NCBI RefSeq assembly: GCF_029853675.1
Contig: NZ_CP122539.1
Span: 1,683,501-1,747,500 of the forward strand
DNA length: 64,000 nt
DNA from: Tenacibaculum tangerinum
GTDB lineage: Bacteria > Bacteroidota > Bacteroidia > Flavobacteriales > Flavobacteriaceae
Reading direction: 5' to 3'
Every line of letters begins with the position of its first letter. Within the stretch, counting starts at the first letter, position 1. Positions 546 to 50,206 of the stretch are shown piece by piece. The notes beneath the pieces are model-generated. The model made no database searches and was not told the DNA's origin. It saw only the letters and a list, made by a program, of their open reading frames with translations. A program made the translations under genes and the position numbers.

Positions 546-558
546 TAAACGTAAAACA

Positions 559-2172: not shown

Positions 2173-2182
2173 CAAAATTTTA

Positions 2183-4005
2183 ATGCCTACTAAAAGCTAC
2201 AAACCTAAACTTTTAAACTTTATAGGTTTATATTTTTTCTTTTAATATTTGGTTGTTGCTTATCAATTGAAGCAAACAATTTCAAAGATTATTCTCATTT
2301 TCAAGAACGTGATTCTATACTGAATCAAGAATTTAAAATTATAAAAAAATTATACTCTAGCGAAAAGTACTCTCAATCACTAAGGAATGCGTTAGCCTTA
2401 CTAAATAAAATAGATACTAACGAAGATCCCGAATTAAGCTACTTGTGCCATTACCAGATAGGAGAAATATTTAGAAAAATTAATAATCATGAAAAAGCTT
2501 TATTTCATTTTAAGAAATCTTTAGAAATAGCTCTTATAAATGGTGGCTTTAACGAAAACAATAACATCCTCTCTAAAAATGAAATCAAATATGCAAAAAG
2601 TCTACTAAGAGCCGGTTATGAATTTTTCAGGTTACAGGACTTAGATAGTGCTAAAAACTATTACTCTAAGATAATTGACTTAAATTTTCATAGCACTGAA
2701 TTAGAAAACATAAAAGCATCTGCTTATAATAATTTATCAGGAATTTACCTTCATGAATCTTCATACAAAACAGCTAGGGAGTATGCAAGAAAAGCTATTG
2801 AAATAAGAAGAAAATATAATAATAAAATATACGAAGCGGCAGCATTAGGGAATTTGGCCAGTATTTATTTAGAAGAGAAAAAGTTCAATGATGCCAAATC
2901 AATCTATTTAAGCGCAATAAATTTGATAGAAAAAAACACTTCTGACGAAGCCGTTAGATTTAAGGAAGATTTGTATTTTAACCTTGCTTGGGCATTGTAT
3001 AAGATGAAAGACTATACAGCCTACGACTATCAAGAAAAATCATATTTAATTAAGGACGATAGGAGAGATAAAGAAATTAGAAAAACTGTAGAGCAGGTCT
3101 ATGCTCAACAAAAGGTAGATCTAGAAAAAGAAAAAACAGCTTTAGTTGAAGAGCAACGAAAACTTGAAGAAGCACAAGAAGCAAAAACATCGCTGCTTTT
3201 CGCAGCGTTGAGCGTTTTGGTCTTGTTTGTTTCTGGCGTTGTTATTTACAATTACAAACTACGTCAAAAAAACTTGCGTTTGAAGCTCTCTGAAAGCAAA
3301 TTATTACAACAACAAAATCTAGAAAAAGTAAAATCAGAAGCACAGGTTAAAATTTTAAATGCTACCATCGACGGAAAAGAAACCGAACGCAAACTCATTG
3401 CAGAAATACTACACGACAATGTGAGTGCCTTGCTATCGTCTGCCAACATGCATTTAACAGCTACTAGAAAACAATTTAATGGAGAGACGCCGCAAGAAAT
3501 TGAAAAAACACAAGCCATTATCTTAGAAGCTTCACAAAAGGTAAGAGACTTATCGCACAACCTAGTCTCTTCTGTTTTATTAAAATTTGGGTTAGAATAT
3601 GCTGTTAAAGATGTAATTAAAAAATACTCTAACAGTCAATTACAATTTGAAATCGATGCCCAAAATATTAATAGGTATAACCAAGAATTTGAAATACGAA
3701 TTTTTAATGTGATTCAAGAACTAATTAACAATATCTTAAAACACAGTAAAGCCAACTACGCACAAATAGAATTAAAAGAAGAGAAGGATCAACTAACCAT
3801 TCTTGTAAAAGATGATGGGGTAGGATTTTCTGCCTCATCTTCTTCTTTTTCAGACGGCATCGGTTTGAATCAAGTAGAAGCCCGAGTTCGTATGATGAAC
3901 GGGAAATTAACCATTAAATCAGGAGAAAATGTAGGTACTTCCATTTTCGTTAAAGTTCCTATTTTAAGAAAAGAAAAGAGTACTGTATTAACCTCTGTGG
4001 GCTAA
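2183..4005 (+). CDS. TPR-containing sensor histidine kinase, frameshifted in its signal peptide
   Basis: From the ATG at 2183 the frame reads 20 codons (through KLLNFIGLYFFF) and stops at 2243-2245. The -1 frame, open from 2209, continues as signal-peptide sequence (IFFLLIFGCCLSIEANN) into the kinase. One extra T in the T6 run at 2233-2238 would restore a 607-aa protein. The uninterrupted part with a usable start begins at TTG 2443. Order: signal peptide, about five TPRs, a membrane segment (about 3196-3255), coiled coil, HisKA_3 with the phospho-acceptor His in LHDN (codon 3412-3414), then an HATPase domain with N-box LINNILKHS and G-box DDGVGF. It probably phosphorylates the upstream LuxR-type regulator. 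The last 18 bp overlap the convergent phosphodiesterase gene. Confidence 0.85.
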
Positions 4006-4724: not shown

Positions 4725-5459
4725 TTGAGGTATTTTATTGAATTAGCATACAACGGAAAAAATTATCATGGCTGGCAAACACAACCGCACGCAATTTCGG
4801 TTCAAGAAGTACTAAATAAGGCTATTAGTACTATTTTAAGACAAGAAATAACCATTGTCGGGGCAGGAAGAACAGATGCTGGCGTGCATGCATCGCAAAT
4901 GTTTGCTCATTTTGATGTAGCAACTGCATTAAATGATAATTTTACCTATAAATTAAATGCAATTTTACCTAATGACATCGTTATTTTTAATACACAGCTA
5001 GTACACAATGAGGCACACGCACGCTTTGATGCGGTTAGTAGAAGCTATGAATATAAAATTTGGTTGGGTAGAAATCCTTTTTTGTTAGAAACCTCCTGGC
5101 AATTACACCATCAACAATTAAATATAGAATTGATGAATACCGCTGCTGCCATTTTATATGAATACGAAGATTTTGAATGTTTTTCGAAAGTAAAAACAGA
5201 TGTACGTACCTTTAACTGCACAGTAACAAATGCTAAATGGATTAAAAAAGGCAATGAATTAACATTCTATATTAGTGCCAATCGTTTTTTAAGAAATATG
5301 GTTCGCGCTATTGTAGGTACTTTAATTGATGTTGGTTTAGAAAAAATTACCGTTAATGACTTTAAAAAAATTATAGAAAGTAAAAATCGAAGCAACGCAG
5401 GAGTGTCAGTTCCAGCAAAAGGACTATTTTTAACAAAAATAACATACGATTATATATAG
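4725..5459 (+). CDS. truA: tRNA pseudouridine(38-40) synthase TruA
   Basis: A 244-aa TruA that forms pseudouridine at positions 38-40 of the tRNA anticodon arm. The catalytic aspartate is D51 in GAGRTDAGVHA. The N-terminus MRYFIELAYNGKNYHGWQ and the RNA-binding RFLRNMVRAIVGTL segment are canonical. The start is TTG at 4725: an in-frame TAA lies at 4716 and the family N-terminus begins exactly here. The stop TAG shares its last base with the GTG start of the following ABC transporter, so the two are translationally coupled. Confidence 0.94.
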   Translation: MRYFIELAYNGKNYHGWQTQPHAISVQEVLNKAISTILRQEITIVGAGRTDAGVHASQMFAHFDVATALNDNFTYKLNAILPNDIVIFNTQLVHNEAHARFDAVSRSYEYKIWLGRNPFLLETSWQLHHQQLNIELMNTAAAILYEYEDFECFSKVKTDVRTFNCTVTNAKWIKKGNELTFYISANRFLRNMVRAIVGTLIDVGLEKITVNDFKKIIESKNRSNAGVSVPAKGLFLTKITYDYI

Positions 5460-7225
5460 TGAGCAAAACAACAGGAAACGCATTTGACATTAAAATTTTT
5501 GCAAGACTTATGAGTTTTGCAAAAAAGTACCGTGTACGATTTACCATTGCTGCTTTATCTACTATTTTACTAGCAGGTTTTTCAGTACTAACCCCTGTCG
5601 TTTTAATGACAGCGATAGACGATTTTACCACCACTAAAAACCCAACAAGGCTCTTGTATTTTACCATAGTCTTAATTATTATTTTAGTTATTCAGGTGTT
5701 ATTTCAATTTAGCTTTATTTTTTATGCAAATTGGGTTGGGCAACATATTATTCGAGATATTAGAGCGAAAACCTTTAGAAAAATATTGCAGTTTAAAATG
5801 GGGTATTTTGATAATTCATCGGTAGGAAAATTAGTAACACGTGTTGTTTCAGACATAGAAACTATTGCCAATTTTTTTACCCAAGGTGTTTTTATGATTG
5901 TAAGCGACATTCTTTTAATGCTAATCGTTATCGTGGTAATGTTTTATACAAACTGGAGGCTTGCTCTAATTGCATTGGCAACCTTACCAGTATTAATATA
6001 CGCTACCAAACTATTTCAAATAGCTATAAAATCTACCTTTCAAGATGTTCGAAATCAAGTAGCAAATCTTAATAGTTTTGTACAAGAGCGTGTTACAGGA
6101 ATGAAAATTGTTCAGCTTTTTAACAGAGAAAAAATAGAGTATAAAAACTTTATTGATATTAATAACAAGCATAAAAAAGCACATATAAAAACGGTTTGGT
6201 ACTACTCTATTTTTTTTCCAATTGCCGAAATATTATCTTCTATTGCTATCGGGTTAATTGTTTGGTACGGAGGTTTGCAGGTTATTGAGGGGGAGGTCGT
6301 TACCGTTGGAGCCATTATTGGTTTTATAAAAATGGCGCAAATGCTTTTTCGCCCTTTACGCCAAATAGCTGATAAATTTAACCAACTACAAATGGGAATC
6401 GTTGCTGGCGAACGCGTTTTTAATATTATAGATACTGAAAGTTCAATAGATAAAACAGGAACAATAACTGCTGAAAACATACAAGGTAATATTGATTTTA
6501 AAGAGGTTCATTTTAGCTATATAAAAGACGAAGAAATTTTAAAAGGCGTTAGTTTTCATGTTGAACAAGGACAAACCATTGCTATTGTAGGAGCTACAGG
6601 AGCGGGTAAATCAACTATTATTAATCTCATAAATCGCTTTTATGAAATTGACAGCGGCGAAATTTCTATTGATGGAATACCTGTACAAGAGTATAAAATT
6701 GATTCTTTACGCCAAAAAGTAGCCGTAGTATTGCAAGATGTATTTTTGTTTTCAGATAGTATTTTAAATAATATTACTTTAAAAAACGATCAGATTTCTC
6801 TTGAAGAAGTTCAAACCGCTGCAAAACAAATAGGAATTCACGAATTTATAATGAGCTTACCTAACGACTATCATTACAATGTAAAAGAACGTGGTGGTAT
6901 GCTATCTTCTGGGCAACGCCAATTAATTGCATTTTTGCGTGCTTATGTAAGCAAGCCTAGTATTTTAATATTAGATGAAGCTACTTCTTCGGTAGATGCG
7001 CATTCAGAACAAATGATTCAATACGCTACCGATGAAATTACTAAAAACAGAACTTCAATTGTAATTGCACACCGTTTGGCAACAATAAAAAAAGCAGATA
7101 TGATTATTGTAATGGACAAAGGAAATATTGTTGAAAAAGGAACTCATACAGAACTATTAAAAAAACAGGAAGGCTATTACAAGAATTTATATGAAAAACA
7201 GTTTAATAGTGAAACTGTAGTGTAA
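5459..7225 (+). CDS. ABC exporter, MsbA/multidrug type (fused TMD-NBD)
   Basis: A 588-aa half-transporter with an N-terminal six-helix exporter membrane domain (about 25-310) and a C-terminal ATPase domain. The ATPase has Walker A GATGAGKS (about 378-385), signature LSSGQRQ (about 481) and Walker B ILILDEATS (about 501-509), followed by the H-loop IAHRLAT. It should act as a homodimer in the inner membrane exporting a lipid or drug-like substrate. The substrate cannot be told from sequence. The start is GTG overlapping the truA stop. No defect in the ATPase motifs. Confidence 0.92.
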   Translation: MSKTTGNAFDIKIFARLMSFAKKYRVRFTIAALSTILLAGFSVLTPVVLMTAIDDFTTTKNPTRLLYFTIVLIIILVIQVLFQFSFIFYANWVGQHIIRDIRAKTFRKILQFKMGYFDNSSVGKLVTRVVSDIETIANFFTQGVFMIVSDILLMLIVIVVMFYTNWRLALIALATLPVLIYATKLFQIAIKSTFQDVRNQVANLNSFVQERVTGMKIVQLFNREKIEYKNFIDINNKHKKAHIKTVWYYSIFFPIAEILSSIAIGLIVWYGGLQVIEGEVVTVGAIIGFIKMAQMLFRPLRQIADKFNQLQMGIVAGERVFNIIDTESSIDKTGTITAENIQGNIDFKEVHFSYIKDEEILKGVSFHVEQGQTIAIVGATGAGKSTIINLINRFYEIDSGEISIDGIPVQEYKIDSLRQKVAVVLQDVFLFSDSILNNITLKNDQISLEEVQTAAKQIGIHEFIMSLPNDYHYNVKERGGMLSSGQRQLIAFLRAYVSKPSILILDEATSSVDAHSEQMIQYATDEITKNRTSIVIAHRLATIKKADMIIVMDKGNIVEKGTHTELLKKQEGYYKNLYEKQFNSETVV

Positions 7226-7231
7226 ATAAAA

Positions 7232-7262
7232 TTTGTTTACATCAATCAAAGTAGTACATTTG
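7232..7262 (+). promoter_or_regulatory. Consensus Bacteroidota promoter for the small lipoprotein
   Basis: TTTG at 7232-7235, exactly 19 bp, then TACATTTG at 7255-7262, a perfect match to TTTG-N19-TAnnTTTG. Transcription should start near 7269, about 26 nt before the ATG at 7295. This is the best promoter match I found in the window and suggests strong expression. Confidence 0.75.
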
Positions 7263-7294
7263 TTGTTCAATCTTAAAAACTAAAAAATCAATTA

Positions 7295-7753
7295 ATGATG
7301 AAAAAAGTAATCTTATCTCTATTTGTTGTTGGTGCTTTATTAGCAACCTCTTGTAAAAACACTAAAGAAGACGCTAAAGACGCTGCCAATGATGCTATTG
7401 AGGCCGTAGACAATGCTGCCGAAGAAACAAAAGAAGCTGTACAAAATGCTGCCGAAGAAACAAAAGAAGCTGCTCAAGATATGGCTAATTCTGTAGAATC
7501 TGCAATCGAAGGTATTACAATTCCTGAATTTGAAGATCCTAAAGTTGGTGAGTACTTACAGTCTTACACAGAACATGCTAAAGATTATATCGAAGCAAAA
7601 GGAGATGTAGTTAAAAATTCTGAATTAGTAAAAGAAAGCGCAAAATTAGCTGAAGAAGCTAAAGAAATTCTTGCTAACTTAGACGAAGAAGCTACTAAAA
7701 AATTCAACAGCACCATGGCTGCTATTCAAGCTAAAATGGCTCCTGCTAACTAA
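7295..7753 (+). CDS. Small Ala/Glu/Lys-rich lipoprotein with 11-residue repeats
   Basis: A 152-aa lipoprotein (lipobox LATSC, Cys20) with an amphipathic helical body. Residues about 42-63 hold two 11-mers (AVDNAAEETKE, AVQNAAEETKE) and a degenerate third, the pattern of LEA-like or apolipoprotein-like helices. A 28-bp DNA segment is repeated exactly at a 33-bp period (7412-7439, 7445-7472). The rest is a predicted helical domain of unknown function. It has its own consensus promoter and a strong terminator, so it is monocistronic. A stress or envelope role is a guess from the composition. Confidence 0.8.
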   Translation: MMKKVILSLFVVGALLATSCKNTKEDAKDAANDAIEAVDNAAEETKEAVQNAAEETKEAAQDMANSVESAIEGITIPEFEDPKVGEYLQSYTEHAKDYIEAKGDVVKNSELVKESAKLAEEAKEILANLDEEATKKFNSTMAAIQAKMAPAN

Positions 7754-32471: not shown

Positions 32472-33898
32472 TTATTTAATGACTTTTTTTATTTGTTTTA
32501 ACTCAATAAAAATATCAAATATATTTAATGTTCTTAACACTAAAAAGTAAACTATAATTATAAACAGCACATTAATACTGTATATCCAAAATGAAAAATA
32601 CGCCTTTATGAAGAAAGACCAAAAAATTAATATTAACGAAGTAAAAATTATTTTAAATACTTCCTTAAACCTGTTATCTTTGATGACCATTTCTTTAGAT
32701 GAAGAATAAAAACTAATTAAATAACTTAAAATATTTGTTATTAAAAGTCCTAACAATAAAAACTCTATGCTTCTATACAATATTCCTAAAAGAATAGATA
32801 TCGCTTGTATGCTTTTTTTAATAAATCAATATGTAATATCTTTTCAGTTTTATTAATAACCTTAAAAAAAACTCTACTTAACATTTCTTGTAAAAAGAAA
32901 AAAGAAGATATTGATAATATTTGTATAAAAAAATATCCTTCGCTCCATTCACTTCCATATACTAATTTTAATATATCGTCTCCATAAGAAACTACAACAA
33001 CTATTAAAATTCCCATGATAACGGAGACATATGTTGATATTTTAAAAAAAGCCGCATTCATTTTTTTTGAATCTTGTTGTACTTTAGAAAGTCCTGAAAA
33101 AGCTACGCTCTGCAAAAGCAAGTTGATTAAATTATTAGGAACATCTTGTAATCTTTTTGACTGATAATAAAACCCCGCTTGAGTCTGAGAAAAATACTTA
33201 GCCAATACTACTTGATAAATATTATCATAAATAGAACTTAAAACTGAAGTTATTGATGTATTTATACCAAACTTATATAAAGTTTTAAAAGATGTATAAT
33301 TAAACCTAAGAGGTACAAAATATTTCTGTGAAACTATTAATAAAATCGAAAAAAAAGAGAATATAATAATTGAATAAGTATTAATGCCCATACTCCAAAA
33401 CTATATAAAGCTAATAACACCCCAATTATTGACGCAAAAAGCATAGAAAAAAAACGATAAATTCCTCTTTCTTTAAACTTAAAATCTCTTATCAACATTG
33501 TACTACCAACAACTTGAAAAGAGTTAATTATAAGAATTACAGATGATAATTTTATGTAGTTTATAAAGCTATTATCTTCATAATAATCCGCTATTTTTTC
33601 TGATGAAACAAATAATAAAAAAGAAAAAAACACCAAGTATTAAATTAAAAGTAAATACTGTAGAATAGTCTATTTTTTTTATTTTTTCTTTCCTAACAAG
33701 TGCTGCTCCTAACCCTCCTTCTACAAAGACTCCTGAAACTAAAATAAAAAACATAACAACCCCTATTTTACCAAATTCACTTGGGGGTAAAATTCTTGTA
33801 AAGATAATATTAGTTAAAAGTATAATTATCAAATATCCTAACTGACTTGTTAAAGACCACAAAGATCCTTTTAACATCTTTTTCTTTAAATCACCCAT
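32472..33898 (-). pseudogene. Wzx-type oligosaccharide flippase split by three single-base frameshifts
   Basis: Four consecutive minus-strand frames (33898-33578, 33636-33337, 33391-32786, 32780-32472) read as successive parts of one MOP-superfamily flippase of about 475 aa, starting MGDLKKKMLKGSLWSL. The switches are at T runs as read on the coding strand: one extra T near 33617-33630, one missing T at 33349-33356 (T8), and one missing A at 32813-32819 (A7). About 12 membrane helices are spread over the parts. Wzx moves lipid-linked repeat units across the inner membrane. As written the gene is broken; sequencing indels in homopolymers are as likely as real decay. It precedes wzy. Confidence 0.85.
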
Positions 33899-34928
33899 TA
33901 AATATTATAAATTTAGATTCTTGAATGCTTATAAACCATCTAACAAAACAATGCACACCTTCTTCTATTTTTACCTGAGGTTTGTAGTTATAATCCTTTA
34001 TTAAACCATCCACATTTGCCCAGGTTTTTTTGACATCCCCTGGTTGCATGGGTAACATTTCTTTAACCGCCTCTTTTCCTAAATTGGCTTCCATTGTTGT
34101 AATGAAATCTAACAATTTTACTGAATCGTTGTTACCTATGTTATAGATTTTATAGAGTTCTTCTCTATCTTCAACCGATTTTTCTAGTACTCTTTGTACC
34201 CCTTCTACTATATCATCTACATAAGTAAAATCTCGTTCCATATCTCCGTTGTTGAACACTTTGATGGGACGGTTGTTTGAAATGGCATCAGCAAACAGTA
34301 TAGGTGCCATGTCGGGTCGTCCCCATGGTCCGTACACCGTGAAAAATCGCAATCCTGTAGTGGGCATTTTATATAGATGACTGTAGGTATGAGCCATCAA
34401 TTCGTTACTTTTCTTCGTAGCTGCATACAAACTCACGGGAGTATCAACCCTATCTCCCTCGGAAAAAGGCACTTTTTTGTTGGAGCCGTACACACTTGAG
34501 CTACTGGCATACACCAAATGTTTGATTTCATGATGTCGGCAACACTCCAAAATATTTAAAAACCCAACAATATTGCTTTGAATATACACATCGGGATTTT
34601 CGATACTGTAACGCACTCCTGCTTGGGCTGCTAGGTGACAAACTACTTCAAATTTTTCGGTAGTGAATAATTGAAATAGTGCTTCTTTATCTTCTAAGTT
34701 CAATCGTATAAACTTAAAATTATTAAAAGTAGCACTTGTCATTTCTTGATGAAATACCTCAGCTTTTTTTCTATCTATTCCTAATTGTTGTAACCGAGCA
34801 TATTTTAAATTGACATCGTAATAGTCGTTAATATTATCGATTCCTACTACTTCATGTCCTTCAGTTAGTAATTTTTTACTTAAATGGAACCCGATAAACC
34901 CTGCTGCTCCTGTAACTAAAATCTTCAT
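33891..34928 (-). CDS. UDP-glucuronate 4-epimerase-like SDR, copy 1, altered C-terminus
   Basis: A 345-aa extended SDR (GAAGFIGFHLSKK; ASSSSVYG; YAATKKSNE) of the CapI/LpsL type, which converts UDP-glucuronate to UDP-galacturonate. Residues 1-325 are identical to copy 2 (39974-40987). The last 20 residues differ: copy 2 ends RRFVQWYQEYHS, this copy continues HCFVRWFISIQESK and on. The switch coincides with the end of the 2.7-kb repeat. The stop overlaps the wzx start. It shares a 4-bp ATGA overlap with ugd upstream. Confidence 0.9.
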   Translation of the reverse strand: MKILVTGAAGFIGFHLSKKLLTEGHEVVGIDNINDYYDVNLKYARLQQLGIDRKKAEVFHQEMTSATFNNFKFIRLNLEDKEALFQLFTTEKFEVVCHLAAQAGVRYSIENPDVYIQSNIVGFLNILECCRHHEIKHLVYASSSSVYGSNKKVPFSEGDRVDTPVSLYAATKKSNELMAHTYSHLYKMPTTGLRFFTVYGPWGRPDMAPILFADAISNNRPIKVFNNGDMERDFTYVDDIVEGVQRVLEKSVEDREELYKIYNIGNNDSVKLLDFITTMEANLGKEAVKEMLPMQPGDVKKTWANVDGLIKDYNYKPQVKIEEGVHCFVRWFISIQESKFIIFNG

Positions 34929-36689
34929 GAGTTCTTTCCTATTTGATAATATTCAAATCCTCTTTCTTCTAAATGATAGCTATGGTACTGATTTCTTCCA
35001 TCAAAAATAACTGGGGTTTTCAGTTGCTGTTGAATTTCTGAAAAATCTGGTGAACGAAACTCCTTCCACTCTGTCAATAAAATCAACGCATCTGCATTAG
35101 CCAATACTTCATATTTAGCTTTCTTGTAAGTGATGTTCTCCACATCTTTTAAATAAAAATGTGCTGCTTCTTCCATCGCTTTTGGGTCGTATGCTTGTAC
35201 TTTTGCCCCTCTCTTCACCAGTTCTTTTACCACATAAATCGCTGGGGCTTCACGCATATCGTCGGTTTCTGGTTTGAATGCCAATCCCCATAAACCAAAT
35301 GTTTTTCCTGTTAAATCTTCTCCAAATCTTTTGATGATTTTCTCTGCAATCACAAATTTTTGGCGGTTGTTCACTTCTTCTACTGACTTGATCAATTGGG
35401 CTTCATAACCATGTTCTTCTGCTATCTTTTTCAATGCTTTCACATCCTTCGGGAAACAAGAACCTCCATAGCCTGCACCGGGATAAATAAAACTATAACC
35501 AATTCGTGAATCGGACCCTATTCCTGCACGTACATTGTTTACATCAGCTCCCACGCGCTCGCAAATGTTGGCGATTTCGTTCATAAACGATATTTTGGTG
35601 GCTAGCATTGCATTGGCGGCGTACTTGGTCATTTCTGCGGAACGTACATCCATGGTAATGAATCGGTCGTTGGTCATTGTAAAAGGAGTGTACAACTGGC
35701 GCATTTTTTCAAAAGCATAGTCCGACTCCGCTCCAATTACCACTCTATCAGGTTTCATAAAATCGTTGATGGCATCGCCTTCTTTTAAAAATTCGGGATT
35801 AGAAACTACATCAAATTCAATAGCCACATTTCTTTTATCCAATTCCGATTGAATAGCTACCCTTACTTTATCGGCTGTTCCCACAGGTACGGTAGATTTA
35901 TTTACGACAATCAATCGGTGGTTCATCTTTTGACCAATTTCTTTAGCCACTGCCAACACATATTGCAAATCTGCCGAACCGTCTTCTCCCATAGGAGTAC
36001 CTACGGCTATAAAAACAATAGTAACTTCTTCAAGGGCTTCTTCTAACTTGGTTGTAAAGAATAAGTTGTTCTTCTCTACATTTTTCAATACCATCTTTTC
36101 TAGACCTGGTTCGTAAATTGGTATAATTCCTTGGTGAAGCTTACTTATTTTTTTGGGGTCGATATCTACACAGGTAACTTTGTTTCCCATTTCTGAAAAA
36201 CAGGTTCCTGATACCAAGCCTACATAGCCTGTTCCGATAACAGCTAGTTTCATATTTATTATTTATCTTTTGATTTCAAACTTTCTTTATCATGAACTTC
36301 TTTTCGCAACCCACTGCTAGAAAAACGGTGTTCTCTTTTATTAAAGTACAATTTGATTCCTTTCTTCTCACAAAAATCTCTTCCTGTGAATTGTTTGTTG
36401 GCATATTCATCACCTATAATTCGTACGTCTATATGAAAGGAACGAAGAATATCTTCTAAATCCTGCTCAGTTGCATACGGAACGATTTCATCGACATATT
36501 TACAGCCTTTTAACTGGATATATCGCTCAACTACCGATTGTACGGGTCTGTTTTTATCGGGTCTGTCGATGGTTGGGTCTGTTTGCAAACCACAGATTAA
36601 GTAATCGCATTGGCGCTTGGCTTCTTCTAACATTTTAATATGTCCTGCATGCAATAAATCAAATGCACTGAAAGTAATTCCTGTTTTCA
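33958..36689. repeat. 2,732-bp direct repeat, copy 1
   Basis: It matches 40017-42748 at a constant offset of 6,059 bp with no indel; the three encoded proteins are identical within the repeat and the sampled DNA lines agree base for base. At the low end similarity fades to partial (about 12 of 17 bp), and at the high end it stops abruptly inside a start codon. Confidence 0.92.
34925..36253 (-). CDS. ugd: UDP-glucose 6-dehydrogenase, copy 1
   Basis: A 442-aa nucleotide-sugar dehydrogenase that oxidises UDP-glucose to UDP-glucuronate with 2 NAD+. It has the N-terminal Rossmann motif GTGYVG (7-12), STVPVGTA, EFLKEGDA, the catalytic Cys in GGSCFPKD (about 257) and the C-terminal WGLAFKPETDDMREAP. 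The protein is identical to copy 2 (40984-42312). It supplies the substrate of the adjacent epimerase. Confidence 0.94.
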   Translation of the reverse strand: MKLAVIGTGYVGLVSGTCFSEMGNKVTCVDIDPKKISKLHQGIIPIYEPGLEKMVLKNVEKNNLFFTTKLEEALEEVTIVFIAVGTPMGEDGSADLQYVLAVAKEIGQKMNHRLIVVNKSTVPVGTADKVRVAIQSELDKRNVAIEFDVVSNPEFLKEGDAINDFMKPDRVVIGAESDYAFEKMRQLYTPFTMTNDRFITMDVRSAEMTKYAANAMLATKISFMNEIANICERVGADVNNVRAGIGSDSRIGYSFIYPGAGYGGSCFPKDVKALKKIAEEHGYEAQLIKSVEEVNNRQKFVIAEKIIKRFGEDLTGKTFGLWGLAFKPETDDMREAPAIYVVKELVKRGAKVQAYDPKAMEEAAHFYLKDVENITYKKAKYEVLANADALILLTEWKEFRSPDFSEIQQQLKTPVIFDGRNQYHSYHLEERGFEYYQIGKNS

Positions 36690-36690
36690 A
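36259..36690 (-). CDS. TagD-like adenylyl/cytidylyltransferase family protein, copy 1
   Basis: A 143-aa nucleotidyltransferase with the HxGH motif in LLHAGHIK (about 13-20) and a C-terminal SSSGLRK in place of the usual ISTT-type motif. It resembles glycerol-3-phosphate cytidylyltransferases, so it may activate a polyol or other phosphate for the polysaccharide. The start codon is TTG here, because the repeat ends inside the start codon; copy 2 has ATG. The protein is otherwise identical to copy 2. Confidence 0.85.
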   Translation of the reverse strand: MKTGITFSAFDLLHAGHIKMLEEAKRQCDYLICGLQTDPTIDRPDKNRPVQSVVERYIQLKGCKYVDEIVPYATEQDLEDILRSFHIDVRIIGDEYANKQFTGRDFCEKKGIKLYFNKREHRFSSSGLRKEVHDKESLKSKDK

Positions 36691-37108
36691 TAATTTACTT
36701 ATTCATATTTTTATAAAAAAGCAATGCTACTTTCCAATATTTGTCAACTCCATATTTCGGATATCATGAACAACCTCCATCTATTACCTAGCATCTTGTA
36801 AACCTAATCCATCTCTATCAACACCTCTCGACGACTTGTAGTCTGTAAATCGAAACCATGAGCTGAACTAAATCTCTTCTCTATTTATAGTCATATCTAA
36901 CTAAACATTTCACTGATGCTTTAATTTTTTAATATAACTATCAAAATGCTCAAACTCCACAAAAAAATCAGCTTTTGAAAAAATAACTTCCTAATATTAC
37001 TTATCATTTTTCCCAATTCAGCTACATGACATTACTTGCATTTTTAACCATTTTTAAATAAAGTGGAACAACATATCCTGATACTCATAATAAGCAAAAA
37101 ATTTTTCA
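36691..37108. other. Noncoding spacer with possible gene remnants
   Basis: 418 bp between the HexNAc dehydrogenase and copy 1 of the repeat. No intact gene. Two stop-bounded minus-strand pieces look protein-like. One is about 22 codons ending KYWKVALLFYKNMNK, just before the TTG start of the next gene. The other is about 26 codons containing FRFTDYKSSRGVDRDG. They may be fragments of genes lost when the duplication formed, or an unrelated intergenic repeat. Confidence 0.4.
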
Positions 37109-38392
37109 TTACAACGTCCTATCAACTATTTCTTCAGGTAATACTCCTTTAACATCATACACCACAGCTCCATCTTTCATAATTGATTTTAAATCCATGC
37201 CTTTATATTCATTATGTGCTACAGCTAATACAACCGCATCATATTTACCTTGTGGCGATTCTTTTATTGATTGTAAATTGTACTCTCTCTTTACTTCTTC
37301 TACATCAGCCCAAGGATCATAGATTGTTACATTTGTATTATACTCTTTCAAGCTCTTAACCACGTCTACAACCTTGGTATTACGTACATCTGGACAATTT
37401 TCTTTAAACGTAATTCCCAAAATTAATACTTCAGCTTTTTTAATTTTGATATCTTTATCAATCATTAACTTAATAACCTGAGAAGCTACATACTCTCCCA
37501 TTCCATCATTCATTCTTCTTCCTGCTAAAATAATCCCTGGATGATACCCAAACTCCTGTGCTTTTTGTGCTAAATAATACGGATCTACTCCTATACAATG
37601 TCCTCCAACTAATCCGGGTTTAAACGGTAAAAAGTTCCATTTGGTTCCTGCCGCTGCTAACACATCATTAGTATTGATATTCATCAATCCAAAAATCTTT
37701 GCCAACTCATTTATAAAAGCAATGTTGATATCTCGTTGAGAATTCTCTATCACTTTAGATGCTTCTGCTACTTTAATCGTTGGTGCTAAATGCGTTCCTG
37801 CAGTAATCACCGATTTATACAAATCATCTACTTTCTTACCTATCTCAGGTGTAGAACCAGAAGTTACTTTTAAAATTTTCTCAACCGTATGTTCTTTATC
37901 TCCAGGATTAATACGTTCTGGAGAATATCCTCCATAAAAGTCCTCATTGAATTTTAATCCAGAAACCTGTTCTAATACTGGAATACATTCTTCCTCAGTC
38001 ACTCCAGGATATACTGTTGATTCATAGATAACAATATCCCCTTTTTTTAAAACCTTCCCAACCGTTTCACTCGCTTTAATTAATGGAGTAAGTACAGGAC
38101 GATTATTCTTATCTACCGGGGTAGGCACTGTTACAATATAATAATTACAATCTTTAATATCTTCTAACGATGCTGAACAAAAAAGCCCATTCACATCCGA
38201 TGGTTTTTCTACCAGTACCGATTGTAACACTTCATTTTCAACTTCTAAAGTAGCATCTACTCCAGACATTAACTCTGCAACTCTTTCCTTATTTATATCG
38301 AAGCCTACTACAGAGTATTTTGTTGCAAATAATCTTGCTAAAGGCAATCCTACATACCCTAACCCTATTACGGCAATTTTTTGATTATTCAT
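37109..38392 (-). CDS. Nucleotide-sugar dehydrogenase, VipA/TviB/WbpO type
   Basis: A 427-aa UDP-N-acetylhexosamine 6-dehydrogenase-like enzyme. It has GLGYVGLPLARLFA (10-23), a STVYPGVTEE motif, the catalytic Cys in GGHCIGVDPYY and LGITFKENCPDVRNTK. Family members oxidise UDP-GlcNAc or UDP-GalNAc to the uronic acids. It is a different subfamily from the two ugd copies and is a single copy between the direct repeats. Confidence 0.92.
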   Translation of the reverse strand: MNNQKIAVIGLGYVGLPLARLFATKYSVVGFDINKERVAELMSGVDATLEVENEVLQSVLVEKPSDVNGLFCSASLEDIKDCNYYIVTVPTPVDKNNRPVLTPLIKASETVGKVLKKGDIVIYESTVYPGVTEEECIPVLEQVSGLKFNEDFYGGYSPERINPGDKEHTVEKILKVTSGSTPEIGKKVDDLYKSVITAGTHLAPTIKVAEASKVIENSQRDINIAFINELAKIFGLMNINTNDVLAAAGTKWNFLPFKPGLVGGHCIGVDPYYLAQKAQEFGYHPGIILAGRRMNDGMGEYVASQVIKLMIDKDIKIKKAEVLILGITFKENCPDVRNTKVVDVVKSLKEYNTNVTIYDPWADVEEVKREYNLQSIKESPQGKYDAVVLAVAHNEYKGMDLKSIMKDGAVVYDVKGVLPEEIVDRTL

Positions 38393-38452
38393 GTTTCCAC
38401 TTTCTAAGTCCGCAAAACTACAAAAAATAGTATGAACAAAAGATTATAAAAC

Positions 38453-38487
38453 AAAAAAAGTCTCACCATTAAATGATTAGACTTTTA
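38453..38487 (-). terminator. Terminator of the tRNA-Val pair
   Basis: The stem AAAAGTCT / AGACTTTT (38456-38463 with 38479-38486) with a 15-nt loop is followed on the minus strand by TTTGTTTT. It sits right behind the second tRNA gene in transcription order. Confidence 0.75.
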
Positions 38488-38488
38488 G

Positions 38489-38563
38489 TGGGCGCGAAGG
38501 GATTCGAACCCCTGACCCCTTGGGTGTAAACCAAGTGCTCTGAACCAACTGAGCTACGCGCCC
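38489..38563 (-). tRNA. tRNA-Val(UAC), downstream copy
   Basis: On the minus strand the cloverleaf begins GGGCGCG and ends CGCGCCC plus discriminator A. D arm GCTC/GAGC, anticodon stem CTTGG/CCAAG with loop TTTACAC (anticodon TAC), and T arm with GTTCGAATC. CCA is not encoded. Identical to the copy at 38591-38665. Confidence 0.95.
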
Positions 38564-38590
38564 GTTTGAAATTAACTTTTGTAAGAGTTG

Positions 38591-38665
38591 TGGGCGCGAA
38601 GGGATTCGAACCCCTGACCCCTTGGGTGTAAACCAAGTGCTCTGAACCAACTGAGCTACGCGCCC
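38591..38665 (-). tRNA. tRNA-Val(UAC), upstream copy
   Basis: Same 75-nt sequence as the other tRNA-Val gene, anticodon TAC; the two genes are 27 bp apart on the same strand and are presumably processed from one transcript. Confidence 0.95.
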
Positions 38666-38734
38666 TTACTTGTTAATTGCGGATGCAAATATATAACAGT
38701 TTTAGAGATTGACAATAACTTTTTTTATTTTTTT

Positions 38735-39943
38735 CTATAAAACTTCCGCTACTACAAACGTGCTTCCGCCCACATAAATAACGTCTTCTTCGGAAGCATT
38801 ATTTTTTGCTTTTTCAAAAGCTTGATTTACAGAATCAAACACCTTTCCTTTCAAACTAAACACATCTGCTTGTTCTTTTAATTTATCTACAAACAATCCT
38901 CGGGGAATATTGGGTTTGCAAAAATAATAGCTTGCTTTTTTTGGAAACAGCGGTAAAACTTCGTTCAAATTCTTATCAGAAACGACTCCTAAAACAATGT
39001 GCAATTGCTTGTATTTTTCTTTTTCTAACTGTTTTAATGTGTACAACAACCCTTCTTTGTTGTGTGCTGTATCACAGATTACCTTTGGATGTTCTTGCAA
39101 TACTTGCCAGCGACCTTTTAAGTTGGTATTGGAAACCACATGTAACAATCCGTTTGTGATGTTTTCCTCGGAAATTGTAAATTCTTTTAATTGATGAATG
39201 GTGGTTACTGCTGTGGTTACATTGTTTTGTTGATAGTCACCTAATAAATCAGTCTTATAGTGTTGCTTAGTATCCGAAGCAAATACAATGGGAGCATTGC
39301 ATTCGTTTGCCTTCATAACAAACACTTCTTCTGTTTCTTTTTGTCGCTCACCAATCACTACGGGAACATTCTTTTTGATGATTCCTGCTTTTTCAAAAGC
39401 TATTTCAGGTAGGGTTTCTCCTAAAAACTGGGTATGGTCTAATCCGATATTGGTAATTACTGAAACTTCAGGTGTAATGATATTCGTTGAATCTAGCCTA
39501 CCTCCTAAACCAACTTCAATCACGGCGATATCTACTTTTTGACTGGCAAATTCTTCAAATGCCATTCCTACGGTCATTTCAAAAAATGACAATCGTTGCT
39601 TTTCTAAAAAAGCTTTGTTTTTTTCGATAAACTCAACTACTGCTTCTCTAGAAATCTCTTCTCCATTGATTCGAATGCGTTCTGTGAAACTTTTCAAATG
39701 AGGAGAGGTATACAAGCCTACTTTATATCCTGCTTCCTGTAGTATGGAAGCTATCATGTGACTGGTAGAGCCTTTTCCATTCGTTCCTCCTACATGAATA
39801 GTTTTGAACTTTTGCTGTGGATTTCCAAGTTCGTTGCAAAACGCAATAATATTGGTTAAGTCTTTTTTGAATGCTGTTTGCCCCTGACGTTGGTACATGG
39901 GTAACTGTGCAAACATCCAGTCTAGTACTTGTTCGTAAGTCAT
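38735..39943 (-). CDS. folC: Bifunctional folylpolyglutamate/dihydrofolate synthase FolC
   Basis: A 402-aa Mur-ligase-related enzyme that makes dihydrofolate and adds glutamates to folates. It has the ATP loop VGGTNGKGSTSH (51-62), the EVGLGGRLDSTN segment and the C-terminal DTAHNKEG motif. It is an essential housekeeping gene, probably the only copy. It lies 30 bp downstream of repeat copy 2 and between the two repeat copies, so recombination between them would remove it. Confidence 0.94.
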   Translation of the reverse strand: MTYEQVLDWMFAQLPMYQRQGQTAFKKDLTNIIAFCNELGNPQQKFKTIHVGGTNGKGSTSHMIASILQEAGYKVGLYTSPHLKSFTERIRINGEEISREAVVEFIEKNKAFLEKQRLSFFEMTVGMAFEEFASQKVDIAVIEVGLGGRLDSTNIITPEVSVITNIGLDHTQFLGETLPEIAFEKAGIIKKNVPVVIGERQKETEEVFVMKANECNAPIVFASDTKQHYKTDLLGDYQQNNVTTAVTTIHQLKEFTISEENITNGLLHVVSNTNLKGRWQVLQEHPKVICDTAHNKEGLLYTLKQLEKEKYKQLHIVLGVVSDKNLNEVLPLFPKKASYYFCKPNIPRGLFVDKLKEQADVFSLKGKVFDSVNQAFEKAKNNASEEDVIYVGGSTFVVAEVL

Positions 39944-39973
39944 GTGAATTTTAAAACAAATTAAGATGAAAAA

Positions 39974-40987
39974 TTAACTGTGATATTCTTGATACCATTG
40001 TACAAAACGACGTACTCCTTCTTCTATTTTTACCTGAGGTTTGTAGTTATAATCCTTTATTAAACCATCCACATTTGCCCAGGTTTTTTTGACATCCCCT
40101 GGTTGCATGGGTAACATTTCTTTAACCGCCTCTTTTCCTAAATTGGCTTCCATTGTTGTAATGAAATCTAACAATTTTACTGAATCGTTGTTACCTATGT
40201 TATAGATTTTATAGAGTTCTTCTCTATCTTCAACCGATTTTTCTAGTACTCTTTGTACCCCTTCTACTATATCATCTACATAAGTAAAATCTCGTTCCAT
40301 ATCTCCGTTGTTGAACACTTTGATGGGACGGTTGTTTGAAATGGCATCAGCAAACAGTATAGGTGCCATGTCGGGTCGTCCCCATGGTCCGTACACCGTG
40401 AAAAATCGCAATCCTGTAGTGGGCATTTTATATAGATGACTGTAGGTATGAGCCATCAATTCGTTACTTTTCTTCGTAGCTGCATACAAACTCACGGGAG
40501 TATCAACCCTATCTCCCTCGGAAAAAGGCACTTTTTTGTTGGAGCCGTACACACTTGAGCTACTGGCATACACCAAATGTTTGATTTCATGATGTCGGCA
40601 ACACTCCAAAATATTTAAAAACCCAACAATATTGCTTTGAATATACACATCGGGATTTTCGATACTGTAACGCACTCCTGCTTGGGCTGCTAGGTGACAA
40701 ACTACTTCAAATTTTTCGGTAGTGAATAATTGAAATAGTGCTTCTTTATCTTCTAAGTTCAATCGTATAAACTTAAAATTATTAAAAGTAGCACTTGTCA
40801 TTTCTTGATGAAATACCTCAGCTTTTTTTCTATCTATTCCTAATTGTTGTAACCGAGCATATTTTAAATTGACATCGTAATAGTCGTTAATATTATCGAT
40901 TCCTACTACTTCATGTCCTTCAGTTAGTAATTTTTTACTTAAATGGAACCCGATAAACCCTGCTGCTCCTGTAACTAAAATCTTCAT
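39974..40987 (-). CDS. UDP-glucuronate 4-epimerase-like SDR, copy 2
   Basis: A 337-aa protein, identical to copy 1 over residues 1-325, ending QWYQEYHS, the normal type of C-terminus for this family. NAD motif GAAGFIG, YAATK catalytic pair and SSSSVYG are intact. It would make UDP-galacturonate from the product of the adjacent ugd copy. Its 4-bp overlap with ugd is the same as in copy 1. Confidence 0.92.
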   Translation of the reverse strand: MKILVTGAAGFIGFHLSKKLLTEGHEVVGIDNINDYYDVNLKYARLQQLGIDRKKAEVFHQEMTSATFNNFKFIRLNLEDKEALFQLFTTEKFEVVCHLAAQAGVRYSIENPDVYIQSNIVGFLNILECCRHHEIKHLVYASSSSVYGSNKKVPFSEGDRVDTPVSLYAATKKSNELMAHTYSHLYKMPTTGLRFFTVYGPWGRPDMAPILFADAISNNRPIKVFNNGDMERDFTYVDDIVEGVQRVLEKSVEDREELYKIYNIGNNDSVKLLDFITTMEANLGKEAVKEMLPMQPGDVKKTWANVDGLIKDYNYKPQVKIEEGVRRFVQWYQEYHS

Positions 40988-42748
40988 GAGTTCTTTCCTA
41001 TTTGATAATATTCAAATCCTCTTTCTTCTAAATGATAGCTATGGTACTGATTTCTTCCATCAAAAATAACTGGGGTTTTCAGTTGCTGTTGAATTTCTGA
41101 AAAATCTGGTGAACGAAACTCCTTCCACTCTGTCAATAAAATCAACGCATCTGCATTAGCCAATACTTCATATTTAGCTTTCTTGTAAGTGATGTTCTCC
41201 ACATCTTTTAAATAAAAATGTGCTGCTTCTTCCATCGCTTTTGGGTCGTATGCTTGTACTTTTGCCCCTCTCTTCACCAGTTCTTTTACCACATAAATCG
41301 CTGGGGCTTCACGCATATCGTCGGTTTCTGGTTTGAATGCCAATCCCCATAAACCAAATGTTTTTCCTGTTAAATCTTCTCCAAATCTTTTGATGATTTT
41401 CTCTGCAATCACAAATTTTTGGCGGTTGTTCACTTCTTCTACTGACTTGATCAATTGGGCTTCATAACCATGTTCTTCTGCTATCTTTTTCAATGCTTTC
41501 ACATCCTTCGGGAAACAAGAACCTCCATAGCCTGCACCGGGATAAATAAAACTATAACCAATTCGTGAATCGGACCCTATTCCTGCACGTACATTGTTTA
41601 CATCAGCTCCCACGCGCTCGCAAATGTTGGCGATTTCGTTCATAAACGATATTTTGGTGGCTAGCATTGCATTGGCGGCGTACTTGGTCATTTCTGCGGA
41701 ACGTACATCCATGGTAATGAATCGGTCGTTGGTCATTGTAAAAGGAGTGTACAACTGGCGCATTTTTTCAAAAGCATAGTCCGACTCCGCTCCAATTACC
41801 ACTCTATCAGGTTTCATAAAATCGTTGATGGCATCGCCTTCTTTTAAAAATTCGGGATTAGAAACTACATCAAATTCAATAGCCACATTTCTTTTATCCA
41901 ATTCCGATTGAATAGCTACCCTTACTTTATCGGCTGTTCCCACAGGTACGGTAGATTTATTTACGACAATCAATCGGTGGTTCATCTTTTGACCAATTTC
42001 TTTAGCCACTGCCAACACATATTGCAAATCTGCCGAACCGTCTTCTCCCATAGGAGTACCTACGGCTATAAAAACAATAGTAACTTCTTCAAGGGCTTCT
42101 TCTAACTTGGTTGTAAAGAATAAGTTGTTCTTCTCTACATTTTTCAATACCATCTTTTCTAGACCTGGTTCGTAAATTGGTATAATTCCTTGGTGAAGCT
42201 TACTTATTTTTTTGGGGTCGATATCTACACAGGTAACTTTGTTTCCCATTTCTGAAAAACAGGTTCCTGATACCAAGCCTACATAGCCTGTTCCGATAAC
42301 AGCTAGTTTCATATTTATTATTTATCTTTTGATTTCAAACTTTCTTTATCATGAACTTCTTTTCGCAACCCACTGCTAGAAAAACGGTGTTCTCTTTTAT
42401 TAAAGTACAATTTGATTCCTTTCTTCTCACAAAAATCTCTTCCTGTGAATTGTTTGTTGGCATATTCATCACCTATAATTCGTACGTCTATATGAAAGGA
42501 ACGAAGAATATCTTCTAAATCCTGCTCAGTTGCATACGGAACGATTTCATCGACATATTTACAGCCTTTTAACTGGATATATCGCTCAACTACCGATTGT
42601 ACGGGTCTGTTTTTATCGGGTCTGTCGATGGTTGGGTCTGTTTGCAAACCACAGATTAAGTAATCGCATTGGCGCTTGGCTTCTTCTAACATTTTAATAT
42701 GTCCTGCATGCAATAAATCAAATGCACTGAAAGTAATTCCTGTTTTCA
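40017..42748. repeat. 2,732-bp direct repeat, copy 2
   Basis: The partner of 33958-36689. All three genes here have normal ends (ATG start of the tagD-like gene, canonical epimerase C-terminus), which suggests this is the donor copy. No transposase or terminal inverted repeats at the ends. Confidence 0.92.
40984..42312 (-). CDS. ugd: UDP-glucose 6-dehydrogenase, copy 2
   Basis: 442 aa, the same sequence as copy 1. GTGYVG NAD site and the GGSCFPKD catalytic Cys are present. It lies between tonB and folC in a stretch otherwise made of housekeeping genes, so this set looks inserted there or ancestral to the polysaccharide locus. Confidence 0.94.
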   Translation of the reverse strand: MKLAVIGTGYVGLVSGTCFSEMGNKVTCVDIDPKKISKLHQGIIPIYEPGLEKMVLKNVEKNNLFFTTKLEEALEEVTIVFIAVGTPMGEDGSADLQYVLAVAKEIGQKMNHRLIVVNKSTVPVGTADKVRVAIQSELDKRNVAIEFDVVSNPEFLKEGDAINDFMKPDRVVIGAESDYAFEKMRQLYTPFTMTNDRFITMDVRSAEMTKYAANAMLATKISFMNEIANICERVGADVNNVRAGIGSDSRIGYSFIYPGAGYGGSCFPKDVKALKKIAEEHGYEAQLIKSVEEVNNRQKFVIAEKIIKRFGEDLTGKTFGLWGLAFKPETDDMREAPAIYVVKELVKRGAKVQAYDPKAMEEAAHFYLKDVENITYKKAKYEVLANADALILLTEWKEFRSPDFSEIQQQLKTPVIFDGRNQYHSYHLEERGFEYYQIGKNS

Positions 42749-42749
42749 T
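42318..42749 (-). CDS. TagD-like adenylyl/cytidylyltransferase family protein, copy 2
   Basis: 143 aa with an ATG start at 42749; otherwise identical to copy 1. HxGH at LLHAGHIK. It is first in the three-gene set tagD-like, ugd, epimerase. The 162-bp upstream region contains a dispersed repeat and no clear promoter match. Confidence 0.87.
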   Translation of the reverse strand: MKTGITFSAFDLLHAGHIKMLEEAKRQCDYLICGLQTDPTIDRPDKNRPVQSVVERYIQLKGCKYVDEIVPYATEQDLEDILRSFHIDVRIIGDEYANKQFTGRDFCEKKGIKLYFNKREHRFSSSGLRKEVHDKESLKSKDK

Positions 42750-42776
42750 TTTTTATTATACCTTTTAAAATCATTT

Positions 42777-42846
42777 GAGTGTCATTCTGACAAGAGAAAA
42801 AAATCTCATTTAAACAAGTAACTCTTATTATTGAGATGACACACTT
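42777..42846. repeat. Short dispersed intergenic element with nested inverted repeats
   Basis: GTGTCAT at 42779-42785 pairs with ATGACAC at 42836-42842, and ATCTCA at 42803-42808 pairs with TGAGAT at 42832-42837. The pattern resembles GTCATTCTGA-type intergenic repeats common in Flavobacteriaceae; a degenerate relative may lie at 12627. Confidence 0.45.
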
Positions 42847-42911
42847 TTGATTTTTAGTTAATTAAATTTGATATCGAACTTCTTTATTTACTAATTTTCT
42901 GCAAAGATATG

Positions 42912-43730
42912 TTATTTTGAAAGAGAAAACTTGTAGATGATTGTTCCTCTTTGTTTTGATGGTGCATTTCCATCGGCATTCCATGTTGTTTTCAATGCTG
43001 CTTTTTTTGCTGCGTCGTATAAACAAAAAGCAGAATTGGTGGTTCCTTTGGCTCCGGGAGTAGCTTTGATTACTTTTCCATTTTGATTTACTTCTATAAT
43101 TACTACCACCGTTCCTTCTTCTTGACAGTCTGGCTTTTCTATAGGTTTCGAGAGTGCTTTTCTTCCTGCTAAGTTATAATTTCCTCCTGAACCACTGCCC
43201 GAGTTTCCATAATATTTATCTGAACTAGGGTCTCCTTGTTCGTTTCCTTTTACTCCAGATTGGTTATCGTCTCCTTCACCTTTATTGGCTCCGTTATTTG
43301 AAGTACCGTTTAGCAAACTGTTTAAGGCATCTGTTGCTTCTTTCGAGGGTTTTGGCTTGGGTTTTTCTTTTGGTTTTGTTTCTTTCGGAGCTTCTTTAAT
43401 TACTTTTTTTTCTTCTTTCTTTTTTTCAACTACAGGCACCTCTTCCGCAGTATCATTTGTAATCATTTCTTCTTTAACTGTCTCTTCAGAAACTTCTTCT
43501 TCTTGTTCTTCTACCACTTCTTCTTGTTGTGGAGTAGCTTGAGCTTTTGTTTTTTCAACAGGTTCACCACTTCCTACATCTGAATTCCCAAAATTAATCG
43601 CTAATCCGTACTCAATAGGCGGATCGAGATATTTCATTCCGTAGTTATATATTCCAATTAATAAGAGTATTAGAATAATAGCTGTGATTACAGCCGATTT
43701 ACGTTTATGTTGGGTATCTAAAACTTTCAT
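42912..43730 (-). CDS. tonB: Energy transducer TonB
   Basis: A 272-aa inner-membrane-anchored periplasmic protein. One N-terminal helix (about 14-32) is followed by a Glu/Lys/Pro-rich spacer (about 60-135), a Gly/Asn/Ser linker, and a C-terminal domain (about 200-272) of the Bacteroidota TonB type. It transmits proton-motive energy from ExbB/ExbD to outer-membrane receptors. It directly follows exbD (no gap), so it is the last gene of exbB-exbD-tonB. Confidence 0.88.
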   Translation of the reverse strand: MKVLDTQHKRKSAVITAIILILLLIGIYNYGMKYLDPPIEYGLAINFGNSDVGSGEPVEKTKAQATPQQEEVVEEQEEEVSEETVKEEMITNDTAEEVPVVEKKKEEKKVIKEAPKETKPKEKPKPKPSKEATDALNSLLNGTSNNGANKGEGDDNQSGVKGNEQGDPSSDKYYGNSGSGSGGNYNLAGRKALSKPIEKPDCQEEGTVVVIIEVNQNGKVIKATPGAKGTTNSAFCLYDAAKKAALKTTWNADGNAPSKQRGTIIYKFSLSK

Positions 43731-49062: not shown

Positions 49063-50206
49063 ATGGATTTTAATCTTACAGAAGAGCATTTAATGATTCG
49101 TGATGCCGCACGTGATTTTGCTCAAACAGAGTTATTACCAGGAGTTATAGAAAGAGATGAAAAACAACAATTTCCCGACGAACTGGTTCGAAAAATGGGT
49201 GAATTAGGATTTATGGGAATCATGGTAGACCCTAAATATGGAGGAAGCGGAATGGATGCTGTTTCGTATGTATTGATTATGGAAGAGTTGTCTAAAATTG
49301 ATGCTTCAGCTTCTGTTATGGTTTCTGTTAACAATTCATTAGTATGCTATGGTTTAGAAGCCTATGGTACCGAAGAACAAAAACAAAAATATTTAACGAA
49401 ACTAGCTACTGGTGAGCATATCGGAGCTTTTTGTTTGAGTGAGCCCGAAGCAGGTCTCTGATGCTACTTCACAAGCAACTACTGCCATTGATAAGGGTGA
49501 TTACTATTTACTAAACGGTACTAAAAACTGGATTACCAATGGTGGTCGTGCAAATACATATTTAGTAATTGCACAAACGGATAGAAGTAAAGGACATAGA
49601 GGAATCAATGCTTTTATCGTTGAAAAAGGTATGGAAGGTTTCGATATCGGGCCGAAAGAAGATAAATTGGGAATCCGTGGTTCTGATACGCACACGTTGC
49701 AATTTAACGACGTAAAAGTTCCTAAAGAAAACCGTATTGGTGAAGATGGATTCGGATTCAAGTTTGCCATGAAAACCTTGTCTGGCGGACGTATTGGTAT
49801 TGCTGCACAAGCGTTAGGTATTGCATCTGGTGCTTATGAACTCGCGCTTAAATACTCTAAAGAACGTAAAGCTTTTGGAACGGAGATTTGCAATCATCAA
49901 GCAATTGCCTTTAAGTTAGCAGACATGTATACAGAAATTGCCGCTGCTCGTCACTTGGTAATGGAAGCCGCTTGTAAAAAAGATGCGGGTGAAAATTACG
50001 ATCGCGAAAGTGCCATGGCAAAATTATATGCTTCTAAAGTAGCGATGGAACATACAGTTGAAGCTGTTCAAATTCATGGAGGAAATGGTTTTGTAAAAGA
50101 ATACCATGTTGAACGTTTAATGCGCGATGCTAAAATTACACAGATTTACGAAGGGACTTCAGAAATTCAAAAAATTGTAATTTCAAGAAGTTTAATCAAA
50201 GGTTAA
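49063..50206 (+). pseudogene. Acyl-CoA dehydrogenase, split by one inserted base
   Basis: Two frames (49063-49461 and the rest up to 50206) form one 380-aa acyl-CoA dehydrogenase once a single C near 49456 is removed. Then CLSEPEAG continues as SDATSQATTAIDKG, the normal FAD-binding segment. The rest is complete: KNWITNGG, the RIGIAAQALG region, QAIAFKLADM and the catalytic Glu in QIYEGTSEIQ. The site is GGTCTCTG, not a homopolymer. As written translation stops after 132 codons; a sequencing error or a recent loss are both possible. It has its own promoter and terminator. Confidence 0.88.

Follow-up and report, generated by a model that had tools for sequence, protein, structure and literature searches.

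Capsule loci exchange beside conserved sugar-nucleotide genes, such as ugd in Klebsiella. The Tenacibaculum tangerinum locus described here is similar in that a variable polysaccharide locus lies beside genes for UDP-sugar precursors, but it differs in that the second set lies beyond that locus, on the other side of folC and tRNA genes, and in that sequence appears to pass between the two sets inside a single genome. We refer to the two sites as slots: slot U lies between tonB and folC, and slot D lies within the variable polysaccharide locus, beyond folC, tRNA-Val, and a dehydrogenase gene.

Conversion between duplicated bacterial genes is a well-known process, of which the present locus would be a new case. 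Concerted evolution has been described for the duplicated tuf genes (elongation factor Tu) and for 25 other prokaryotic genes, with gene conversion inferred from synteny and trees (PMC6053082). In that study, two copies in different contexts within a genome resemble each other more closely than they resemble orthologues, and differential loss occurs, both of which resemble the situation here. However, the genes treated there are conserved and evolved in this way over long times, with tabulated examples of 124 to 3,936 million years, whereas we are dealing with a sugar-nucleotide cassette in two nearby slots in one genus, homogenized in some species and not in others. The main text mentions neither epimerase, dehydrogenase, UDP-glucose, nor Bacteroidetes. 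In homology-facilitated illegitimate recombination, a homologous joint at one end is paired with an illegitimate joint at the other during integration of linear DNA (PMC3240628). A tagD gene could be carried into slot U in this way, although the DNA there is linear and the donor here would be the same chromosome, with the second joint deduced from a short start-codon match. In the portion of the literature that we covered, conversion of such cassettes had not been described for Tenacibaculum. Read together with its relatives, a perfect repeat in a finished genome is better understood as, probably, an overwritten neighbor and not a new duplication, and it indicates how genes may pass from a conserved slot to a variable surface-polysaccharide locus or back.

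A perfect direct repeat around folC

In the window (the whole 64,000-nucleotide stretch analyzed), positions 33958 to 36689 and 40017 to 42748 form an exact run of 2,732 bp at an offset of 6,059, with 0 mismatches and no gaps. An earlier note, made from the sequence alone, had given the same coordinates and an indel-free offset, and base-by-base comparison confirmed them exactly (0/2,732 differences). The block carries a tagD-like gene, ugd, and a UDP-glucuronate-epimerase-like gene, all on the minus strand. Read along that strand, the order is the tonB-like gene, U (tagD-ugd-epimerase), folC, two tRNA-Val(TAC) genes, the UDP-HexNAc dehydrogenase gene, a gene remnant, D (tagD-ugd-epimerase), a flippase-like gene, and the rest of the polysaccharide locus. 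The features are as follows.

33958..36689, minus: copy 1 of the block (D copy), in the polysaccharide locus; 0 mismatches to 40017-42748
33891..34928, minus: epimerase, D copy, NAD-dependent, UDP-glucuronate 4-epimerase-like, 345 aa; own tail from 33957 down
34925..36253, minus: ugd, D copy, UDP-glucose 6-dehydrogenase-like; TIGR03026 above cut-off, TuaD model NF047673 below cut-off
36259..36690, minus: tagD-like cytidylyltransferase-family protein (PF01467), D copy, TTG start; the block ends in the start codon
36691..37108, minus: remnant, with an internal deletion, of the gene that precedes tagD in relatives; two stretches align to both ends of a 327-aa ORF of locus L138
37109..38392, minus: UDP-HexNAc dehydrogenase, TviB-like; 569.5 bits, below the cut-off of 592
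38488..38563, minus: tRNA-Val, anticodon TAC (tRNA scan)
38590..38665, minus: second tRNA-Val, anticodon TAC, identical to the first (repeat comparison)
38735..39943, minus: folC; TIGR01499 above cut-off
40017..42748, minus: copy 2 of the block (U copy), between tonB and folC; slot set by comparison with relatives
39974..40987, minus: epimerase, U copy, 337 aa, U-type tail (ORF list, tail comparison)
40984..42312, minus: ugd, U copy; protein identical to the scanned D copy
42318..42749, minus: tagD-like gene, U copy, ATG start (ORF list, U-cassette comparison)
42750..42911, minus: U leader, with the word TATCTTTG at 42902-42909 directly after tonB, followed by a palindrome-like element
42912..43730, minus: tonB-like gene, upstream border of slot U (synteny)

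The tonB-like gene had no Pfam or NCBIfam match at 1e-3, and the name that we assume for it comes from its position beside exbB/exbD-like genes. Some relatives of the epimerase are named “UDP-glucuronate 4-epimerase” or “Protein CapI.” Paired matches similar to those of the remnant were found in L139, L140, and L065 (T. caenipelagi, also listed as G309); we take the 327-aa ORF that precedes tagD in L138 to be oxidoreductase-like. The word TATCTTTG after tonB is present in most other U cassettes read, and we presume it to be the Bacteroidota promoter word (TAnnTTTG). A sigma-70 scan of 36600-43000 returned 17 sites versus 23.4 expected in shuffles, and terminators numbered 0 versus 3.3 expected. 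Downstream of the D cassette, the flippase-like polysaccharide gene (32472-33898, minus) is fragmented into three or, probably, four ORFs, and the final one (32472-32780) had no family match; the three frame breaks of the gene lie near runs of 7 to 8 T or A and may reflect real decay, slippage-based switching, or sequencing error. Elsewhere in the window, an acyl-CoA dehydrogenase gene (49063-50206, plus) has one frame break that leaves an N-terminal ORF and a middle/C-terminal ORF.

The earlier note also described the three proteins as identical within the repeat. This holds inside the block and, for the whole gene, for the ugd protein, which is the same in both copies; the epimerase ORFs (345 versus 337 aa) part at 33957, and tagD starts with TTG in copy 1 and ATG in copy 2. 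Between the two copies, identity is 100% for ugd, 99.8% for tagD, and 98.1% for the epimerase gene, while identity to genes elsewhere is at most 84.5%, 82.3%, and 83.3%, respectively. None of 442 third codon positions differ between the two ugd copies, whereas the window differs from seven related copies at 38 to 43% of these positions. Purifying selection on the protein cannot explain the identity.

Full-length copies of the block number two in the single-contig genome (3,610,406 bp), both on that contig and with no third, and the block's other genome matches are two of about 45 to 57 bases each. Between 30 and 50 kb there are no other runs of at least 30 bp at the offset of 6,059, and, at an exact seed of 20 and a length of at least 60, the direct repeats in the window besides the block are the two tRNA-Val genes only. 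Parts of the U leader (42750-42911) gave 41 partial genome matches at an E value of ≤1, including the leader itself. The U leader of G401 holds a different insertion-like stretch.

Carriage of the block by a mobile element could be read into the palindrome-like element in the U leader and the 40 further partial matches of that leader at an E value of ≤1. However, the window contains no inverted pairs at the same seed and length (at least 60 bp), the flanks at the tagD end are unrelated, and no transposase was seen among the region proteins scanned, a subset of the ORFs, so that we consider such carriage highly improbable. A plasmid-borne cassette was also considered and rejected: 133 plasmid records matched the block, and none covered 80% of it. 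Most of the nearest named relatives of the tagD protein come from Tenacibaculum.

Two slots in related species

Comparison with related strains, which the earlier note had proposed, was carried out on related species and yielded the two-slot picture; a protein search for a second strain of the species found none, with only the two window proteins exceeding 87% among the best 120 matches and the next epimerase at 87%. We compared 82 loci, namely, the window, L065, 20 loci from 19 genomes (G453 being represented on two contigs), and 60 further loci, with a choice that favored the closest and least fragmented genomes of the genus. A folC match, weak ones included, was found in 163 of 166 genus genomes. 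Among the 82 loci, 81 contain folC, and 79 of these also have tonB within the stretch. Slot U is occupied by tagD, ugd, and/or the epimerase gene in 22 of the 79 loci (window included) and holds none of the three in 57. The contents are tagD alone (8 loci), ugd alone (5), ugd-epimerase (6), the epimerase gene alone (1), tagD-ugd (1), and all three genes (1, the window); L065, in which Ns split the ugd match, was counted as ugd-epimerase. Two loci outside the 79, G460 and G356, lack tonB within the stretch and have tagD and ugd on the U side of folC. With cassette genes in 22 of 79 loci, slot U repeatedly houses genes whose usual place is D.

Within a clade of 11 species, U holds genes in 7 (the window, G309, G313, G335, G401, G410, and G453) and is empty in 4. 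The flank tree places U-filled and U-empty species as sisters (G335/G351, 100/99; G410/G317, 100/100), and in the ugd tree the U copies of G335 and G410 form their own branch. Gain or loss of U genes has therefore occurred more than once, or whole regions were exchanged. The patchiness of U and the sister pairs speak against taking one old duplication as given. The same two slots are nevertheless used in L065 and the window, although U is patchy in the clade. Base composition of the window deviates in the ugd and flank trees, and its place within the clade is poorly settled.

Uniform homogenization across the genus had been expected and was ruled out: the tagD genes in U and D are 80.9% alike in G339 and 79.7% alike in G360, and each member of these pairs is closer to other species than to its partner. 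With such pairs only about 80% alike, conversion seems to be occasional and not a rule. G310 also has tagD in both slots, and its pair was excluded from the identity table by the coverage filter.

Borders of the block and tracts in other genomes

Past the epimerase end of the block, the slots still agree at 16 of the first 23 bases (chance, about 4e-5). The protein tails read GVRRFVQWYQEYHS in U and GVHCFVRWF... in D, and GVHCFVRWF was compared with GVRRFVQWY; the putative epimerase kinship of the D tail rests on the 23-base stretch and this reading. The U tail is resembled by the U tails of L065, G401, G453, and G313, whereas the D tail (33891-33957) matched nothing but itself among the compared loci (blastn, E ≤ 0.01). 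It thus seems that the border of the block falls within two homologous epimerase genes, each slot having its own tail. At the other end, the block stops in the tagD start codon, beyond which 8 of 30 bases match, the chance level. The D flank upstream of tagD aligns with the D stretches of L065, L138, L139, and L140 up to the tagD codon, with the window one base longer. The U leader, like the U tail, resembles those of other species' U cassettes. The sequence TGAAA is common to the start of ugd (ATGAAA) and the start of tagD in D (TTGAAA). The epimerase joint is homologous; at the tagD start, the joined flanks are unrelated and share no more than a short match, and this joint can be read in either direction.

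Three explanations for the identity had been named in the earlier note: recent duplication, ongoing conversion, and an assembly artifact. We conclude that conversion between resident copies is the best supported and that a simple recent duplication is less likely. In our reading of these sequences, one resident cassette was probably overwritten recently by the other through ectopic gene conversion and was not newly duplicated. Two slots flanking an essential-looking interval would hold related sugar-nucleotide cassettes, and ectopic homologous recombination in the lineage of the window would have let one overwrite the other. A crossover within the two epimerase genes would leave each slot with its own 3′ tail, and copying would halt at the start codon of tagD, beyond which the two flanks show no relationship; TGAAA at the ugd and tagD starts could serve as a second joint for copying from D to U. 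We infer that ugd-epimerase was already present in U before the event and that recombination was the mechanism. The exact identity, the borders, the slot-like flanks of both copies, and the occurrence of the same two slots with a partial tract in T. caenipelagi all support this conclusion.

A recent duplication that placed the D block in a U slot either empty or holding other genes, or one in the opposite direction, in each case without a prior homologue at the target, would fit the perfect 2,732-bp identity, the 57 of 79 loci that have none of the three genes in U, the 4 of 11 clade species with an empty U, the restriction of tagD in U to the window within the clade, and a D tail that matches only itself. 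Of the two borders, the tagD start with its unrelated flanks agrees with such an event, and the epimerase end does not: there the block stops inside the gene, and 16 of 23 bases still match beyond it. Further, the U tail and leader are of the type seen in other species' U cassettes, and in L065 the pair occupying these two slots is diverged but contains a tract. We therefore consider duplication without a prior homologue unlikely.

A further alternative is an artifact, in which two real copies with some differences were made identical by assembly or polishing or in which the second copy is false. The frame breaks in the flippase-like gene (three) and the acyl-CoA dehydrogenase gene (one) may point to sequencing error left in the assembly, or the genes may truly be decaying, and the L065 assembly has Ns at the repeat. 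However, each copy lies between flanks of its own that resemble the U or D flanks of relatives, so both very likely exist, and a false second copy, as the earlier note had allowed for, is unlikely. The genome is a single contig and is 99.91% complete, and 75 of 115 runs of at least 7 A/T (or 6 G/C) lie inside open listed ORFs of at least 150 aa; gross homopolymer error is not general in the window. Overall, we regard an artifact as quite improbable; our analysis rests on the assembled sequence, and a few real differences may have been collapsed during assembly.

Overwriting of one resident cassette by the other is also consistent with the pair in L065, in which U contains ugd-epimerase and D contains tagD-ugd-epimerase. 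Over a gap-free 2,324 bp, these cassettes share 92.8% identity, and their identity to the window copies is about 81 to 82%. The likeness is uneven: the first 643 bp are identical, and 8 mismatches fall in the first 1,010 bp versus 160 in the other 1,314 (~12%). None of 20,000 permutations gave an identical run of 643 bp (maximum, 186). For ugd, the L065 copies are 96.1% identical to each other and at most 87.2% identical to others, and they are sisters in the ugd tree (100/100). For the epimerase gene, the L065 copies are 87.6% identical to each other, versus 93.1% between L065 U and G401 U and 92.7% between L065 U and G453 U; in the epimerase tree, likewise, L065 U joins the G401 and G453 U copies (fork, 92/95), apart from the D copy of its own genome. 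This pattern looks like what a conversion tract ending inside ugd would leave. Because the start of the tract coincides with Ns (3728-3825) flanked on both sides by the same repeated 97 bases, short-read assembly may have altered the first part of the tract. To judge from these Ns in L065, such a locus can be broken or collapsed when assembled from short reads.

A related metagenome contig (L025) contains a different duplicated pair, at 160-2339 and 5165-7344, comprising an epimerase-like gene and a UDP-HexNAc dehydrogenase gene on either side of tagD-ugd. This pair is identical over 1,451 bp, a run reached in 0 of 5,000 permutations, and then 71 to 89% identical in 100-base bins; an assembly error in the metagenome contig is possible. 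The ugd pair of G453 (94.6% alike) was withdrawn as a conversion case and is regarded as compatible with conversion: it is split over two contigs and shows no tract, its longest run of 68 being reached in 4,229 of 5,000 permutations. Taken together, paralogues were more alike than orthologues in the window and for ugd in L065, with the opposite found for the L065 epimerase gene; identity at silent sites was found for ugd in the window (third positions, as above); and a tract edge inside homology was found at the epimerase end in the window and in ugd of L065, but not in G453 or at the tagD end in the window.

Direction of copying and the folC-tRNA-Val interval

We slightly favor copying from D to U. 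Among the seven clade species with genes in U, the window alone has tagD there, whereas tagD occurs in D in G309 and G453 and was not found in the D stretches of the other clade species. In the tagD tree (52 rows), the window pair does not fall in the main cluster of U genes (10 U rows and 1 D row, 81/86), and the inner forks are weak. A single copying event from D with its second joint at TGAAA would give the observed borders. Pointing from U to D instead, the window ugd begins with MKL, as do 6 of 6 other clade U copies versus 1 of 6 other clade D copies; in addition, it is D that holds the odd tail and the odd start codon, and the D side is decaying (broken neighbor genes). Because the gene trees and the ugd N termini point different ways, no firm direction can be given.

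The 6,059-bp recombination interval carries folC, both tRNA-Val genes, and the UDP-HexNAc dehydrogenase gene, which is what the earlier note had said recombination between the copies would excise. For folC, the only full-length match among those listed for the genome lies in the interval, and a second match was tallied. A tRNA-Val(UAC) probe had two close matches in the genome, both in the interval, and 10 weaker ones; 7 of these 10, in five stretches, are Pro, Arg, Met, Trp, Thr, Gly, and Asn tRNAs, and the remaining three, 15 to 25 bases long, fall outside the seven identified. folC and the tRNA-Val(UAC) genes thus look unique to the interval, and, since they do, loss of the interval by recombination between the copies would probably be lethal. 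If deletion is lethal, conversion would be left as the viable outcome.

A broader and more tentative proposal, which we think doubtful, is that the folC-tRNA-Val interval acts as a lock across Tenacibaculum and its neighbors. With folC and both tRNA(UAC) genes between the slots and their loss lethal, direct cassettes would be kept side by side indefinitely and recombination between them channeled into conversion, and U would be a backup copied from or to the fast-changing polysaccharide locus. Were this true, the locus would offer a simple arrangement for measuring ectopic conversion in Bacteroidota. Among 17 loci of relatives scanned, 16 have tRNA-Val(TAC), the exception being L138, which is without folC. 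In the window, the starts of the two tRNA-Val(TAC) genes lie 102 bp from each other, and some relatives' loci show one or three such genes.
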